A stretch of DNA of 64,000 nucleotides, from assembly GCF_030165005.1 (NCBI RefSeq), contig NZ_JASNNW010000002.1:1-64000 (forward strand), in the 5' to 3' direction. Positions within the stretch are counted from its first letter, which is position 1; each line of letters starts with the position of its first letter. Positions 1-28,362 of this stretch are shown piece by piece. The position numbers and the translations under genes were made by a program. A model generated the notes under the pieces. It saw only the letters and a program-made list of their open reading frames with translations. It had not been told where the DNA came from and did not search any database. This DNA is from Blastococcus capsensis (GTDB lineage Bacteria > Actinomycetota > Actinomycetes > Mycobacteriales > Geodermatophilaceae).

Positions 1-127
1 CAACGGACGACTCGAGCACCTCCGAGGCTCCGCTCTCGGCTTCCGCAACCTCACCAACTACATCGCCCGAAGCCTGCTCGAGACCGGCGGGTTCAGGCCG
101 CGACTACACCCTCGATCGTGAAGAGCC
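1..127 (+). mobile_element. Right end of an ISL3-type insertion sequence (cut by window start)
   Basis: The first 127 bases hold the 3' end of a transposase gene and then a terminal sequence. Reading inward from base 127 on the minus strand, the end is GGCTCTTCACGATCGAG, which fits the GGCTCTT-type terminal inverted repeats known for ISL3-family elements. Immediately outside it the sequence changes to a group II intron maturase reading frame. Bases 128-135 (ACAAATCC) would be one copy of the 8-bp target duplication typical of this family; the other copy and the left end lie outside the window. The boundary is inferred from the IR-like end and the abrupt change of coding content. Confidence 0.7.
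2..121 (+). CDS. ISL3-family transposase, C-terminal fragment (5' end outside window)
   Basis: Frame 2 is open from the window edge to a TGA at 119-121 and encodes 39 residues. They include NGRLEHLRGSALGFRNLTNY, which resembles the C-terminus of ISL3 (IS204/IS1001/IS1096/IS1165) transposases, where an N-G-R-x-E and a GFRN motif close the DDE catalytic domain. The stop codon lies inside the terminal repeat of the element, as is normal for compact insertion sequences. Only the tail is visible, so it cannot be judged whether the transposase is intact. The family assignment rests on this short stretch and on the GGCTCTT-like terminal sequence. Confidence 0.65.
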   Translation, partial: NGRLEHLRGSALGFRNLTNYIARSLLETGGFRPRLHPRS

Positions 128-330
128 ACAAATCCAAGTTGATCGCATTCCTGCAGGAGCGGCTGAATCCGCACCTGGTCAAATGGGCGTGCCGGAAATA
201 CAAGCGATTGCACCGTGCCCAAGCCAAGGCCCGCAGGCGACTCGCCCAGATCGCCAGCACAAACCCGGGCCTGTTCGTTCACTGGCGGCACGGAGCACTC
301 CCGAGTGGTTCAACGACGGGAGCCGTGTGA
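128..330 (+). pseudogene. ltrA: Group II intron maturase/reverse transcriptase, C-terminal remnant interrupted by IS
   Basis: From base 128 an open frame encodes the C-terminal maturase end of a group II intron-encoded protein. It has HLVKWACRKYKRL, then a basic stretch, then NPGLFVHWRHG and the terminal STTGAV. Family members characteristically end in FxHWR...GAV, with the stop codon lying inside intron domain V, as here (TGA at 328-330). All reverse transcriptase motifs are missing because an ISL3-type element occupies the upstream side. An apparent GTG start at 118 is inside the IS end and is not a real start. The protein cannot be functional as seen. The rest of the intron may survive on the other side of the IS, outside the window. 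Confidence 0.85.
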
Positions 331-395
331 CGGGAGACTGTCACGCACGGTTCTAAGAGCGCCGGGGGGTGAAATTCCCCCCGGCGACTCGCCAC
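320..395 (+). ncRNA. Group II intron ribozyme domains V and VI (3' end of intron)
   Basis: Bases 320-353 form a 34-nt hairpin starting GAGCCGTGTG and ending CACGGTTC, with the AGC catalytic triad near its 5' side. This is the size and layout of group II intron domain V. A second hairpin follows at 357-390: a GC stem with a GTGAAAT loop and one unpaired A at 387 near its base, as expected for the domain VI branch-point adenosine. The 3' splice site is placed after the AC at 394-395, about 7-8 nt beyond the branch A. Downstream bases resume an HNH endonuclease reading frame. Splice-site position is inferred to within a base or two. Confidence 0.85.
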
Positions 396-575
396 CGGCT
401 CAAGACCTTCGCCCCGGGCTGGCAGCACACCATGAGCGACGACGGCGTGCTCACCGTCATCACACCCTCCGGCGTGACCCGGATCAGCCGGCCGCCCGGC
501 TTCCGCGTGCTCACCGGACCACCGGAACCACCGCCGCCGCCACCGGACCCGGCGGACGACCCGCCACCCTTCTGA
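396..575 (+). pseudogene. DUF222 / HNH endonuclease (13E12 family), 3' exon after group II intron
   Basis: Directly after the predicted intron 3' end, codons starting at 396 read RLKTFAPGW and continue to a proline-rich tail with TGA at 573-575. RLKT followed by a W and a short beta-rich segment (DGVLTVITPSGVTR) matches the C-terminal end of actinobacterial DUF222/13E12 proteins. In these an HNH motif ends in C-x-x-HHRLKT. The intron therefore seems to have inserted right behind the HNH histidines. This is the downstream exon of a split gene; whether the gene could still be restored by splicing is doubtful, since the intron is itself interrupted by an IS. Confidence 0.75.
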
Positions 576-583
576 CCCGGCCG

Positions 584-1207
584 TCAGGCCGGGAGCACCT
601 CGGCCAGCCAGGACGCGGCGGCCGCGCCGACGACATCGGGGTTCTTCTTGAGCGAGTGGTCACCGGGCACCGCGTACACCGACGCGCTCGGGCGGCCGGT
701 GAGCACGGCGGCGACGTCGGCGGGTGCCCCGAACGCGTCCCGCTCGCCCTGGACCACCACCAGCGGCAGCCCGACGCCGGTCAGCTCGCCGGCGCGGCTC
801 TTCTCCGGCCGGCCCGGCGGGTGCAGCGGGAAGGCCAGCGCCAGCACGCCGTCGGCCCCGACCTCGGCGGCGGTCCGGCAGGCCACCCGCGCGCCGGCGC
901 TGCGGCCACCCACCACCAGCGGCCCGGCCAGGTGGCCCGTGCCCGAGAGGTGCGCGAGCACGGCTCGCCAGCCCTCGTCCAGCCGCGCGGGCGCCGGCGC
1001 GATCTTCTTCCCCGCGACCCGCCACGGCTGCTCCACGCGCAGCACCCGCCAGCCGGCCTCGGCGGCGTCCCGCGCCACCGCCACCAGATCGGCGGCCCCC
1101 ACGCCACCCCCGGCGCCGTGCCCGAGCAGCAGCGTCCCCCGCTGCCCGCCGTCCGTCAGGTGGGCGCGGGCCGGGCCGTGCGGGGTGTCGATGTCGAGGG
1201 CGATCAC
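584..1207 (-). CDS. Small alpha/beta hydrolase (KANL3/Tex30-like, dienelactone-hydrolase fold)
   Basis: 207 residues, GTG start. The protein has a compact alpha/beta-hydrolase plan: an oxyanion region LLLGHGAGGG (27-36), a nucleophile elbow GGRSAGAR with Ser103, an acid at Asp157 (QGERDAFG) and a catalytic His184 (PGDHSLKK). The GxGAG and GRSMG-type motifs fit the KANL3/Tex30-like hydrolases, a family without a firm substrate. The start overlaps the stop of the upstream HAD gene by four bases (GTGA), so the two are probably translationally coupled as the last genes of a DedA-HAD-hydrolase operon. The substrate is unknown. The triad is complete and the length is normal for the family. Confidence 0.85.
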   Translation of the reverse strand: MIALDIDTPHGPARAHLTDGGQRGTLLLGHGAGGGVGAADLVAVARDAAEAGWRVLRVEQPWRVAGKKIAPAPARLDEGWRAVLAHLSGTGHLAGPLVVGGRSAGARVACRTAAEVGADGVLALAFPLHPPGRPEKSRAGELTGVGLPLVVVQGERDAFGAPADVAAVLTGRPSASVYAVPGDHSLKKNPDVVGAAAASWLAEVLPA

Positions 1208-1879: not shown

Positions 1880-2575
1880 TCATGCTCCCGGGCGGCCGGA
1901 ATCCTCGCTCGGCGTCCCCGGGCCGGGCGCGGTCGTCCCCGCCCGCCGGTGGTGGTGGACGTCGCGGTAGCGCTTGACCACCAGGTAGGCCAGACCCAGC
2001 GCGACGGCGGCGACGAGCGCGTAGTCGACGTACTTGAGGTTGTCCTGGATGAAGTTGCCGGCGAGCACACCGAGGCCGATCAGCAGGGCGTTCCAGATCA
2101 GGCTGCCCGCGGCGGTGTAGACGATGAACTGCAGGAACGGCATCCGGACCACGCCCGCCGGCACGGAGATGAAACTGCGCACGATCGGCACCATCCGGCC
2201 GAAGAAGACCGCCGCCCGGCCGTGCCGCTCGAACCAGGCGAAGGTCTTGTCGACGTCCGCGGTCTGCACCAGCGGCAGCCGGTCGAGGAAGGCGTGCGCC
2301 CGCCGCGGCCCCAGCGCCCGGCCCACGTAGTAGAAGAAGATCGCGCCGATCACCGAGCCCAGCGTGGCGAACAGGACGACGGCGACCGCGTTCATCTCGC
2401 CCTGGCGGATCAGCACGCCGGCCAGGCCGAGCACCGCCTCGCTCGGGATCGGCGGGATCACCGTCTCGAGCAGGATGCTCAGCCCCACCCCTACCGGGCC
2501 CAGCGTGTTGACCAGGTCGAGCAGGAATCCGGTGATGCCACCCTCGTCGGAGGCTGCAGCGGCGAGGAACGACAT
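1880..2575 (-). CDS. DedA family integral membrane protein (VTT/SNARE-associated domain)
   Basis: 231 residues from the ATG at 2575, preceded by a GGGGGA ribosome site; a GTG three codons upstream is possible. It has the DedA layout: an N-terminal hydrophobic segment, ETVIPPIPSE with the conserved E and P residues, the glycine-rich FATLGSVIGAIFFYYVGR, then FGRMVPIVRSFISVPAGVVRM with the conserved arginine motif, and C-terminal membrane helices. The family are probable lipid scramblases or undecaprenyl/phospholipid flippases driven by proton-motive force. The tail after about residue 200 is hydrophilic and His/Arg-rich. It is the first gene of the operon with the HAD and alpha/beta hydrolase genes and is divergent from the amidohydrolase at 2648. 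Confidence 0.9.
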   Translation of the reverse strand: MSFLAAAASDEGGITGFLLDLVNTLGPVGVGLSILLETVIPPIPSEAVLGLAGVLIRQGEMNAVAVVLFATLGSVIGAIFFYYVGRALGPRRAHAFLDRLPLVQTADVDKTFAWFERHGRAAVFFGRMVPIVRSFISVPAGVVRMPFLQFIVYTAAGSLIWNALLIGLGVLAGNFIQDNLKYVDYALVAAVALGLAYLVVKRYRDVHHHRRAGTTAPGPGTPSEDSGRPGA

Positions 2576-2647
2576 GTCCCCCACGGTATCGGCGGCTCCG
2601 GCCCGCCGCCGCGCCCCCGGGCCGGGCCCGGGCTAGGTTCGGGAACC

Positions 2648-3946
2648 ATGCGGCAGCGCTTCACCGCCCGGGCCGTCGTCGTCGGCGACCGCGGCGGCAC
2701 GGTCCTCCCCGATGCGGTGCTGGACGTCACCGACGGCCTGATCGAGTGGGTCGGGCCCGCCGCCGAGGCGCCACCGGCCGGGGACGCCGACGTGGTGGCC
2801 CTTCCCGGGGTGCTCACCCCGGGCCTGGTGAACAGCCACTCGCACGCCCCGATGGTGCTGTTCCGCGGCCAGGGCGAGGGTCTGCCCCTGGACCGCTGGC
2901 TGCGCGAGGTCATGTGGCCGCGGGAGGCCCGGCTCACCCCCGATGACATCGAGGTCGCGATGACCGCCGCATCCGCGGAGATGCTCGCCGGCGGCGTCAC
3001 CACCAGCGTCGAGATGTACTTCCACCCCGAGCGGATCGCCGCCGCCGTCACCGCGACGGGCGCCCGCGCGGTGGTCGCCACCCCGCTGCTGCCCCTGCCG
3101 GGCATGCCACCCGTGGCCGAGCAGCTGGACGCCGCCGTCGCCCTGGCCGCCGGCGCACCCGGCGACGGCGCCGTCGAGTACGGCATCGGGCCGCACGCCG
3201 CCTACACCGTTCCGCTCCCGGTGCTCGCCGACGCGGCGTGGGCCGCGCGCGAGCACGGCCTCCTGCTGCACCTGCACGTCGCCGAGACCGCCACGGAGGG
3301 CGACGACCTGCTCGCCGCGCACGGGCTCTCGGTGCCTGCCCTGCTCGCCTCCTACGACGTGCTGGGCGGGCGGGTCCTCGCCGCGCACTGCGTGCACCTG
3401 GGCGACGGCGACCTCGAGCTCTGGCAGGAGTACGACGTCGCCGTCGCGCACTGCCCGGCCAGCAACGCCAAGCTGGCCAGCGGCGTCGCGCCGGTGCGTC
3501 CGATGCTCGACCGCGGCATCCGGGTGGGGCTGGGCACCGACGGGCCGGCGTCCAACGACTCGCTCGACCTGTTCGCCGACCTGCGGCTGGCCGCCGGGAT
3601 GGCCCGGCTGCGCGAGCGGTCGTCGACCGCACTGACCGCCGCCGAGGCGTTCTGGCTGGCCACCGGTGGCGCCGCCGACGCGATCGGCCGCCCGGACCTG
3701 GGGCAGCTCGCCGTCGGCCGGCGGGCCGACCTGGTGCACGTCGACACCCGGGACCTGGGCTTCGAGCCGGTCGGCGACCCGGCCGACGTGCTGGCCCACC
3801 TGGTGTGGTCCGGGGCGGGCCGGCACGTGCGCGACGTCTGGGTGGGCGGCCGGCCGGTGATGCACGACGGCGCGTCCACCACCGTGGACGTCGAGGCGCT
3901 GCGGGCGGACGTCGCGGCCCGGGCCGCCCGGCTGGCCGGCGCATGA
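2648..3946 (+). CDS. Amidohydrolase, MTA/SAH deaminase (MtaD/TrzN/SsnA) family
   Basis: 432 residues. The metal site of the amidohydrolase superfamily is complete: HxH at 64-66 (VNSHSHAP), His210 (LHLHVAET), His247 (AAHCVHL) and Asp298 (LGTDGPASND). These motifs are those of the cytosine deaminase-like subgroup with 5'-methylthioadenosine/S-adenosylhomocysteine deaminases, guanine deaminase and TrzN. Zn-dependent hydrolytic deamination of a purine or related heterocycle is therefore the likely reaction. The stop overlaps the start of the next gene (ATGA at 3943-3946), so it is co-translated with a flavin oxidoreductase, which is an unusual partner for a simple salvage deaminase. The exact substrate is not resolved. 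Confidence 0.85.
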   Translation: MRQRFTARAVVVGDRGGTVLPDAVLDVTDGLIEWVGPAAEAPPAGDADVVALPGVLTPGLVNSHSHAPMVLFRGQGEGLPLDRWLREVMWPREARLTPDDIEVAMTAASAEMLAGGVTTSVEMYFHPERIAAAVTATGARAVVATPLLPLPGMPPVAEQLDAAVALAAGAPGDGAVEYGIGPHAAYTVPLPVLADAAWAAREHGLLLHLHVAETATEGDDLLAAHGLSVPALLASYDVLGGRVLAAHCVHLGDGDLELWQEYDVAVAHCPASNAKLASGVAPVRPMLDRGIRVGLGTDGPASNDSLDLFADLRLAAGMARLRERSSTALTAAEAFWLATGGAADAIGRPDLGQLAVGRRADLVHVDTRDLGFEPVGDPADVLAHLVWSGAGRHVRDVWVGGRPVMHDGASTTVDVEALRADVAARAARLAGA

Positions 3947-28199: not shown

Positions 28200-28261
28200 G
28201 CGCCGTCTCCTCTCGCTCGCGGAGACCCGCGGCGCACGGGAACTCCGTCCTTGCCGGGCGG

Positions 28262-28362
28262 CGGGCGCCGTCCAGCCGGCTCTTCCCCTGGAGCACCTCA
28301 GACGGAGTAGAGGTTGCCGGGCAGCCAGCCAGGTGCTTCGCGCTGCCTCTCAGGAGCCAGGT
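28262..28362 (-). ncRNA. SAM riboswitch (SAM-I/SAM-IV clan) controlling metY-metX
   Basis: On the minus strand the leader shows the conserved core of SAM-I/SAM-IV aptamers: CTGAGAGGCAGCGCGAAGC, then GCCCGGCAACC, then GAGGTGCTCCAGGGGAAGAGC. The outer GGCTC (28354-28358) pairs with GAGCC (28278-28282) to form P1. The pattern GGTGC...GGGGAAGA with a GC-rich 3' extension (about 28240-28275) is closer to SAM-IV, known from actinobacteria upstream of methionine genes. High SAM should turn off metY and metX. Exact class and 3' boundary are inferred by eye. Confidence 0.85.

Follow-up and report, generated by a model that had tools for sequence, protein, structure and literature searches.

Our results indicate that the beginning of contig C27 in the 51-contig draft genome of Blastococcus capsensis holds the 3' part of a site-specific, endonuclease-less group IIB-type retroelement that homes to DUF222 genes, at the terminal His-block codons of their HNH motif, a reading to which we give a probability of about 90%. 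The window, which is the whole stretch of 64,000 nucleotides analyzed, starts with the first base of this contig, and the features at its start are listed in Table 1. In the proposed course of events, the intron RNA would recognize the terminal His-block codons of HNH in DUF222 genes and reverse-splice into them, and the reverse transcriptase (RT)/maturase of the intron would copy the RNA into DNA. Splicing out of the intron would restore the host reading frame, and the repeated DUF222 genes would provide many copies of the site, among which the empty copies would persist as targets. The copy in the window would later have been interrupted by an ISL3 element, losing about the last 66 residues of its RT.

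Table 1. Features at the start of the window, with the evidence on which each was placed.
Feature	Position	Strand	Evidence
ISL3-family insertion sequence, right end	1..127	+	exact copies elsewhere, C30 transposase, shared terminus
ACAAATCC, candidate IS target duplication, also within the intron RT frame	128..135	+	sequence
Group IIB-type intron, 3' part; 5' part off contig	128..393	+	Rfam RF00029, similarity to full introns
Intron RT/maturase, C-terminal piece, severed by the IS	130..330	+	similarity to L167 RT
Domain V, AGC at 321-323	320..353	+	Rfam match, fold, covariation
Domain VI, bulged branch-point A387, seven bases from the 3' splice site	357..390	+	fold, covariation
Intron 3' end, GCC (ACC in most aligned relatives)	391..393	+	exon joins of relatives, EBS3
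3' exon, DUF222/HNH gene tail, begins inside a His codon (C/AC CGG CTC AAG), stop 573-575	394..575	+	tblastn, uninterrupted C3-end copy

The initial annotation had described an intron closed by domains V and VI, and this was confirmed by Rfam, the fold, and covariation. Intron_gpII (RF00029) matched at 318-393 with 56 bits (cut-off 40), and the genome contained only one other Rfam intron match. The 76 nt of the two domains folded at -51.5 kcal/mol (z -6.55), none of 200 shuffled sequences folded as well, and the fold left A387 unpaired within the domain VI helix. Among 17 chosen sequences, namely the window and 16 relatives from related loci, standard pairs filled 99.2% of the pair cells, 10 of the 28 pairs changed on both sides, and a shift of the partners by 1 to 3 columns abolished the covariation signal; the domain VI helix had 13 pairs, with 99.1% of cells paired in the same 17 sequences. 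Domains V and VI with a bulged branch-point A, as expected of a group II intron, were thus present in the window itself, while the 5' end GUGYG with domains D1-D4 was found in the relatives L167 and L242, and the RT/maturase reading frame in L167, the window having its C-terminus only, under the Pfam GIIM cut-off (13.3 bits against 23). The intron part in the window was 77% identical to the full intron L167 at its 3' end and 84% identical to L137, and the RT piece showed 64% similarity to the L167 RT over residues 347-423 (73% over residues 358-423 for a second copy on contig C3). The window intron terminates in ...GACUCGCC, and the exon begins with ACCGG. The consensus 3' end of group II introns is AY, which is not what is seen here, as CC ends the window intron and six frame-verified introns. 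The CC end is a departure from the consensus and no defining exclusion; the branch-point A at -7 and EBS3 fit it.

Downstream of the intron, a DUF222/HNH gene resumes behind its HNH histidines, as the initial annotation had claimed, and matches of the tail to PF02720 loci by tblastn support this, with the exon start now refined to position 394. The tail peptide matched 17 of the 30 loci fetched (1e-3), many of which had been fetched through a match to the window exon; the independent part consisted of 11 PF02720-fetched loci of the same genome, five of which were matched (L036, L037, L038, L041, and L044, 1e-3). The window tail alone had no Pfam match, and the succession of DUF222 and HNH was observed in the first exon of L167, the window holding the tail only. 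In the 112 family genomes, a query across the junction matched in 63; among the matches listed, the exon stretch 392-420 (93-100% identity) accounted for most places, and B. capsensis alone gave a match to the maturase part that lies outside of domains V and VI.

The home site itself is defined to the base in a relative. Genome G556 holds a full intron of 1853 nt (L167:1892-3744) inside a DUF222/HNH gene, at the same HNH point as in the window and with both exons. Its RT/maturase is intact (423 aa, 2411-3682; TIGR04416, 401 bits) and contains RVT_1 (68-289) and GIIM (315-386), with no further Pfam domain in the last 37 residues. The first exon matched PF02720 (E 2e-31) and PF01844 (E 8.4e-6), and joining the exons restored the frame, LVLMCAHH^HRLLHRSGW. 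Four intron-free paralogues in the same genome were 90.8-93.4% identical across the junction. The sequence reads ACCACC before and ACCGG after the insertion point; EBS1 GGUGGU pairs with IBS1 ACCACC (-6 to -1, the His codons), and EBS3 U pairs with the A at +1. The DUF222 HNH home site suggested by the initial annotation was therefore found occupied in L167 and empty in its paralogues. Its further suggestion of many possible targets agrees with these empty paralogues and with the 12 matches to PF02720 above cut-off in B. capsensis, where DUF222 is multi-copy.

Exon recognition was analyzed in eight introns with both ends. If the intron is taken to run from GUGYG to ...CUCACC, six of the eight restore the frame in a recognized gene: the joins are SY^DNALAEAF, CW^DNALAESF, CW^DNAMAESF, and AL^DNAAAESF in IS3-type genes (antisense), RYADD^FVIL in an intron RT, and CAHH^HRLLH in DUF222, and the joins of L170 and L182 gave no recognized gene. 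The records of L114 and L116 carry an IS3 transposase annotation, which L113 lacks, and the L115 record is unannotated there. We take the motifs at these joins to be the YADD of intron RTs, the DNA..E of IS3 transposases, and HNH, so that the sister introns adjoin catalytic motifs other than HNH. The intron breaks the codon that precedes the motif, one within it, or one just past it, and a catalytic residue is not always split. An exon start directly after ...GAC was also considered and rejected; it would leave five surplus bases in the six frame-restoring joins and put the branch-point A at -2. Three sister introns, L079, L077, and L078, lie inside the RT genes of other group II introns beside YADD, L079 being placed from both exons, and the other two by visual inspection of the 3' exon.

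Averaged over the eight introns, the EBS1 column formed 5.875 of 6 pairs (wobbles counted) with the final six bases of the exon (next best column 4.43), and none of 300 exon permutations was as high (maximum 5.5); the exons of four of these introns are nearly identical, which lowers the effective number, and motifs were used to place the 5' starts of L170, L182, and L079. A single column, EBS3, complemented the first base of the 3' exon in all eight, a count reached by no other column, and an EBS2 scan of the eight introns gave no convincing column. EBS1 and EBS3 thus covary with the exons across eight full introns, a set outside of which the window copy stands; since its EBS1 is absent from the assembly, its pairing is presumed from these relatives. 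IBS3-EBS3 pairing is a mark of IIB and IIC introns, according to a section of one article (PMC4424553), and IIC is disfavored because the insertions are at coding homing sites. Recognition in the eight relatives, as predicted from EBS1-IBS1 and EBS3-IBS3 complementarity, is of the IIB type, and mobility by retrohoming is predicted for the lineage, with empty sites and covariation as the observations. The site match could also be incidental if a GC-rich intron inserted frequently into sequence resembling CACC, through short homology between its own end, CACC, and the CACC/A in which the HNH introns sit. This is highly improbable, however, as the sister introns differ in IBS1 with matching changes in EBS1, and the same codon is occupied in several genomes, with the six joins restoring the frame in or beside a recognized motif.

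Relatives were sought in 112 genomes of the family, 397 of the order, 390 of the family of G431, and 394 of the class, as well as in named genomes and plasmids, with few candidates per genome scored in each survey. Matches were found in 16 of the 397 order genomes, in 21 of the 390 genomes of the G431 family (at 1e-10), and in 23 of the 394 class genomes, where the six 3' exons that were read showed no additional insertion into DUF222; the named genomes yielded 14 loci. The initial annotation had proposed a search for introns at the same junction in other DUF222 genes and in relatives. The search was successful: the intron end precedes two DUF222 tails in B. capsensis, and an intron end with a DUF222-type tail was found in five genomes including that of the window by tblastn (1e-3) and in two more by eye. 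Five of the eleven tails compared were matched at this threshold, those of the window, L137 (G745), L167 (G556), L168 (G691), and L185 (G503), and the DUF222 naming of L137, L168, and L185 rests on the G556 paralogues and on G503 loci identified through the first exon of G556. The tails of L169, L172, L180, L186, L170, and L113 had no match at 1e-3; L170 and L113 represent other targets, L169 (G691) and L172 (G605) resemble DUF222 tails by eye, and L180 (G542) does so only with frame breaks allowed. G691 carries its two intron copies, L168 and L169, before two strongly differing tails, one of which was confirmed.

A second 5' junction, between CAACACCACC and GTGTGTCC, was present in G745, where the EBS1 stretch aligned to L167 reads GGUGGA (5 of 6 pairs, by eye). 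The G745 locus was discarded as a full gene, as a stop codon leaves only about 30 bases of its first exon open. L185 has no first half of the RT, and L172 and L180 have no RT; all three are intron remnants that kept the 3' end and the tail and lost the 5' part, and the sequence upstream of L172 resembles the end of another gene, by eye. At 25 empty sites, IBS1 was GCCACC (12), CCCACC (10), GGCACC (2), or CCCATC (1). These sites were read from 26 loci (L049-L074, the 26th being cut off) that had been found by exon match and picked by an ACC start, so the A at +1 there is due to selection. No relative was confirmed in one scan of a virus collection, a search in phages yielded two partial hits, both short and spanning 5% and 3% of the query, and three tails including that of the window had no match in plasmids. 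A second intron group, with ends in ...CCCGAC, came from the same searches and looked like another lineage at other sites.

The position of an IS end at 127, directly against the maturase frame of the intron, was another claim that held. The window begins with the C-terminus of a transposase (stop at 119-121) and the terminal GAAGAGCC at 120-127. Exact copies of 1-127 occur at no fewer than five further places in the genome, each at most about 600 bases from a contig end, and copies of 92% identity at no fewer than three more, these counts being lower bounds because scoring covered 40 of the 186 candidates. On C30, a longer copy codes for a DDE_Tnp_ISL3 transposase (PF01610, E 8.7e-39), which assigns the element to the ISL3 family. 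GAAGAGCC was the terminus in 9 of 9 copies compared, and the flanks beyond it, present on the contig for eight copies, were all different. Because of this common terminus, the eight differing flanks, and the ISL3 transposase of C30, the first 127 bases are read as the right end of the IS. ISL3-family elements make an 8-bp target duplication, and ACAAATCC may be such a duplication, a candidate only because its left copy is absent from the assembly. Since the IS severs about the last 66 RT residues, the window intron has most likely lost its function and left the DUF222 gene disrupted, presumably through loss of splicing. An assembly chimera at the IS-intron or intron-exon junction might be suspected at a contig start in a 51-contig draft, where, judging from the contig coordinates, the first 127 bases are perhaps assembler overlap. 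We regard it as very unlikely, as the IS terminus is exact and the intron-exon junction lies on two contigs and recurs in other genomes at the identical codon.

The second intron end opens contig C3 at the same junction. It is identical to the window over 266 nt, and C3 begins exactly at base 128, which could reflect an assembler break at the point where the two copies diverge, one with the IS and one without it. The three-level nest of the initial annotation, an IS in an intron in a DUF222 gene, stands on its right side with the IS end, the intron 3' part, and the exon tail. Its left side was not recovered: the upstream check that had been proposed found no IS left end, second ACAAATCC, intron 5' end, or first exon in the assembly, and the search for the 5' half with the L167 RT and the L167 intron returned only the two 3' ends. 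Contig C14 ends about 114 bases before the site in a copy 97% identical to that at the end of C3, and this end is a candidate for the missing first exon. The C3-end copy of the exon (L018, G000:C3 about 157.6 kb) is uninterrupted and switches frame just before the HNH His block; it is a pseudogene or an assembly error, hence no working empty gene. Window 392-817, comprising the DUF222 tail and part of the neighbor gene, is duplicated there at 98%, and the identity ends inside the neighbor gene.

The window's 3' exon has a mosaic make-up: where the copies differ, it follows the copy at the start of C3 across 415-491 and the copy at the end of C3 from 536 onward. Both gene conversion and homing with co-conversion would fit this pattern. 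The two intron ends in the genome might come from a single interrupted DUF222 locus that was duplicated or spread by gene conversion rather than from two homings, and we put this at just under an even chance. The mosaic and the identity over 266 nt, with a shared stretch extending into the exon, favor it, but homing with co-conversion of the flanks would look alike, and the two tails of G691 differ strongly. Such a history is compatible with homing to the HNH codons as the nature of the element itself.

In a 19-row tree, the DUF222-site introns required 2 changes against 4.6 when shuffled (3 of 500 as low) and formed one group in 48% of 200 bootstrap trees. With 24 short rows (128-nt set, with two by-eye tails among the labels), 2 changes were required against 6.8 (0 of 500 as low), and one group was formed in 0%. 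These results support a clustering of DUF222-site introns and do not support a single origin of the specificity. It is tempting to suggest that an actinobacterial intron clade re-tunes EBS1 and EBS3 to catalytic-motif codons of selfish or repeated genes, in or beside the HNH of DUF222, the YADD of intron RTs, and the DNA..E of IS3 transposases, where a host copy could not easily mutate out of recognition and stay active; we hold this tentatively, with the odds somewhat against it.

The phiRv1 prophage sits in REP13E12 repeats, where its insertion is integrase-mediated. DUF222-type repeats thus serve as landing sites there too, and the integrase is an unrelated enzyme. RmInt1 belongs to the IIB class and has its home in an IS. 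As far as described in part of one report (PMC5010178), RmInt1 of Sinorhizobium meliloti resembles the present intron in its RT/maturase without an endonuclease domain and in its repeated mobile-type gene as home; in contrast, the home here is the HNH motif of a DUF222 gene and no IS, and the host is actinobacterial. Twintrons of Methanosarcina and bacteria, as treated in a section of PMC4424553, likewise show site-specific homing into a repeated element as a perpetual home, and the sister intron L079 in the RT gene of another intron is similar to them, whereas DUF222 is a nuclease-like gene and no intron. The same section describes alternative 3' splice sites in B.a.I2 of B. anthracis. Two 3' ends a few bases apart are thinkable here as well, and EBS3 distinguishes them in B.a.I2 fashion, but EBS3 covariation, branch-point distance, and frame here all favor one site. 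REP13E12/HNH/DUF222 is named among repetitive elements in a portion of PMC10589994. Our literature search, which left subscription journals mostly uncovered, found no paper joining a group II intron with DUF222 or with 13E12; among the matches listed, the word actinobacteria occurred in none for group II introns and actinobacteria, and the phrase 'HNH endonuclease gene' in none on group II introns. The kind of intron is already known, and for its home in the HNH of DUF222 this search gave no paper, which is no proof that the site is unpublished.

Taken together, these introns make a clear case of a retroelement that takes as its address the active-site codons conserved in a repeated gene family, and they define, to the base in one relative, the home site of an actinobacterial lineage. 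Their exon-recognition rules could serve for target prediction or for the design of targeting introns for actinomycetes. The copies also illustrate routes of decay, IS insertion in the window and loss of the 5' part in relatives. Elsewhere in the window, a SAM-IV riboswitch was detected on the minus strand at 28242-28357 (82.3 bits).
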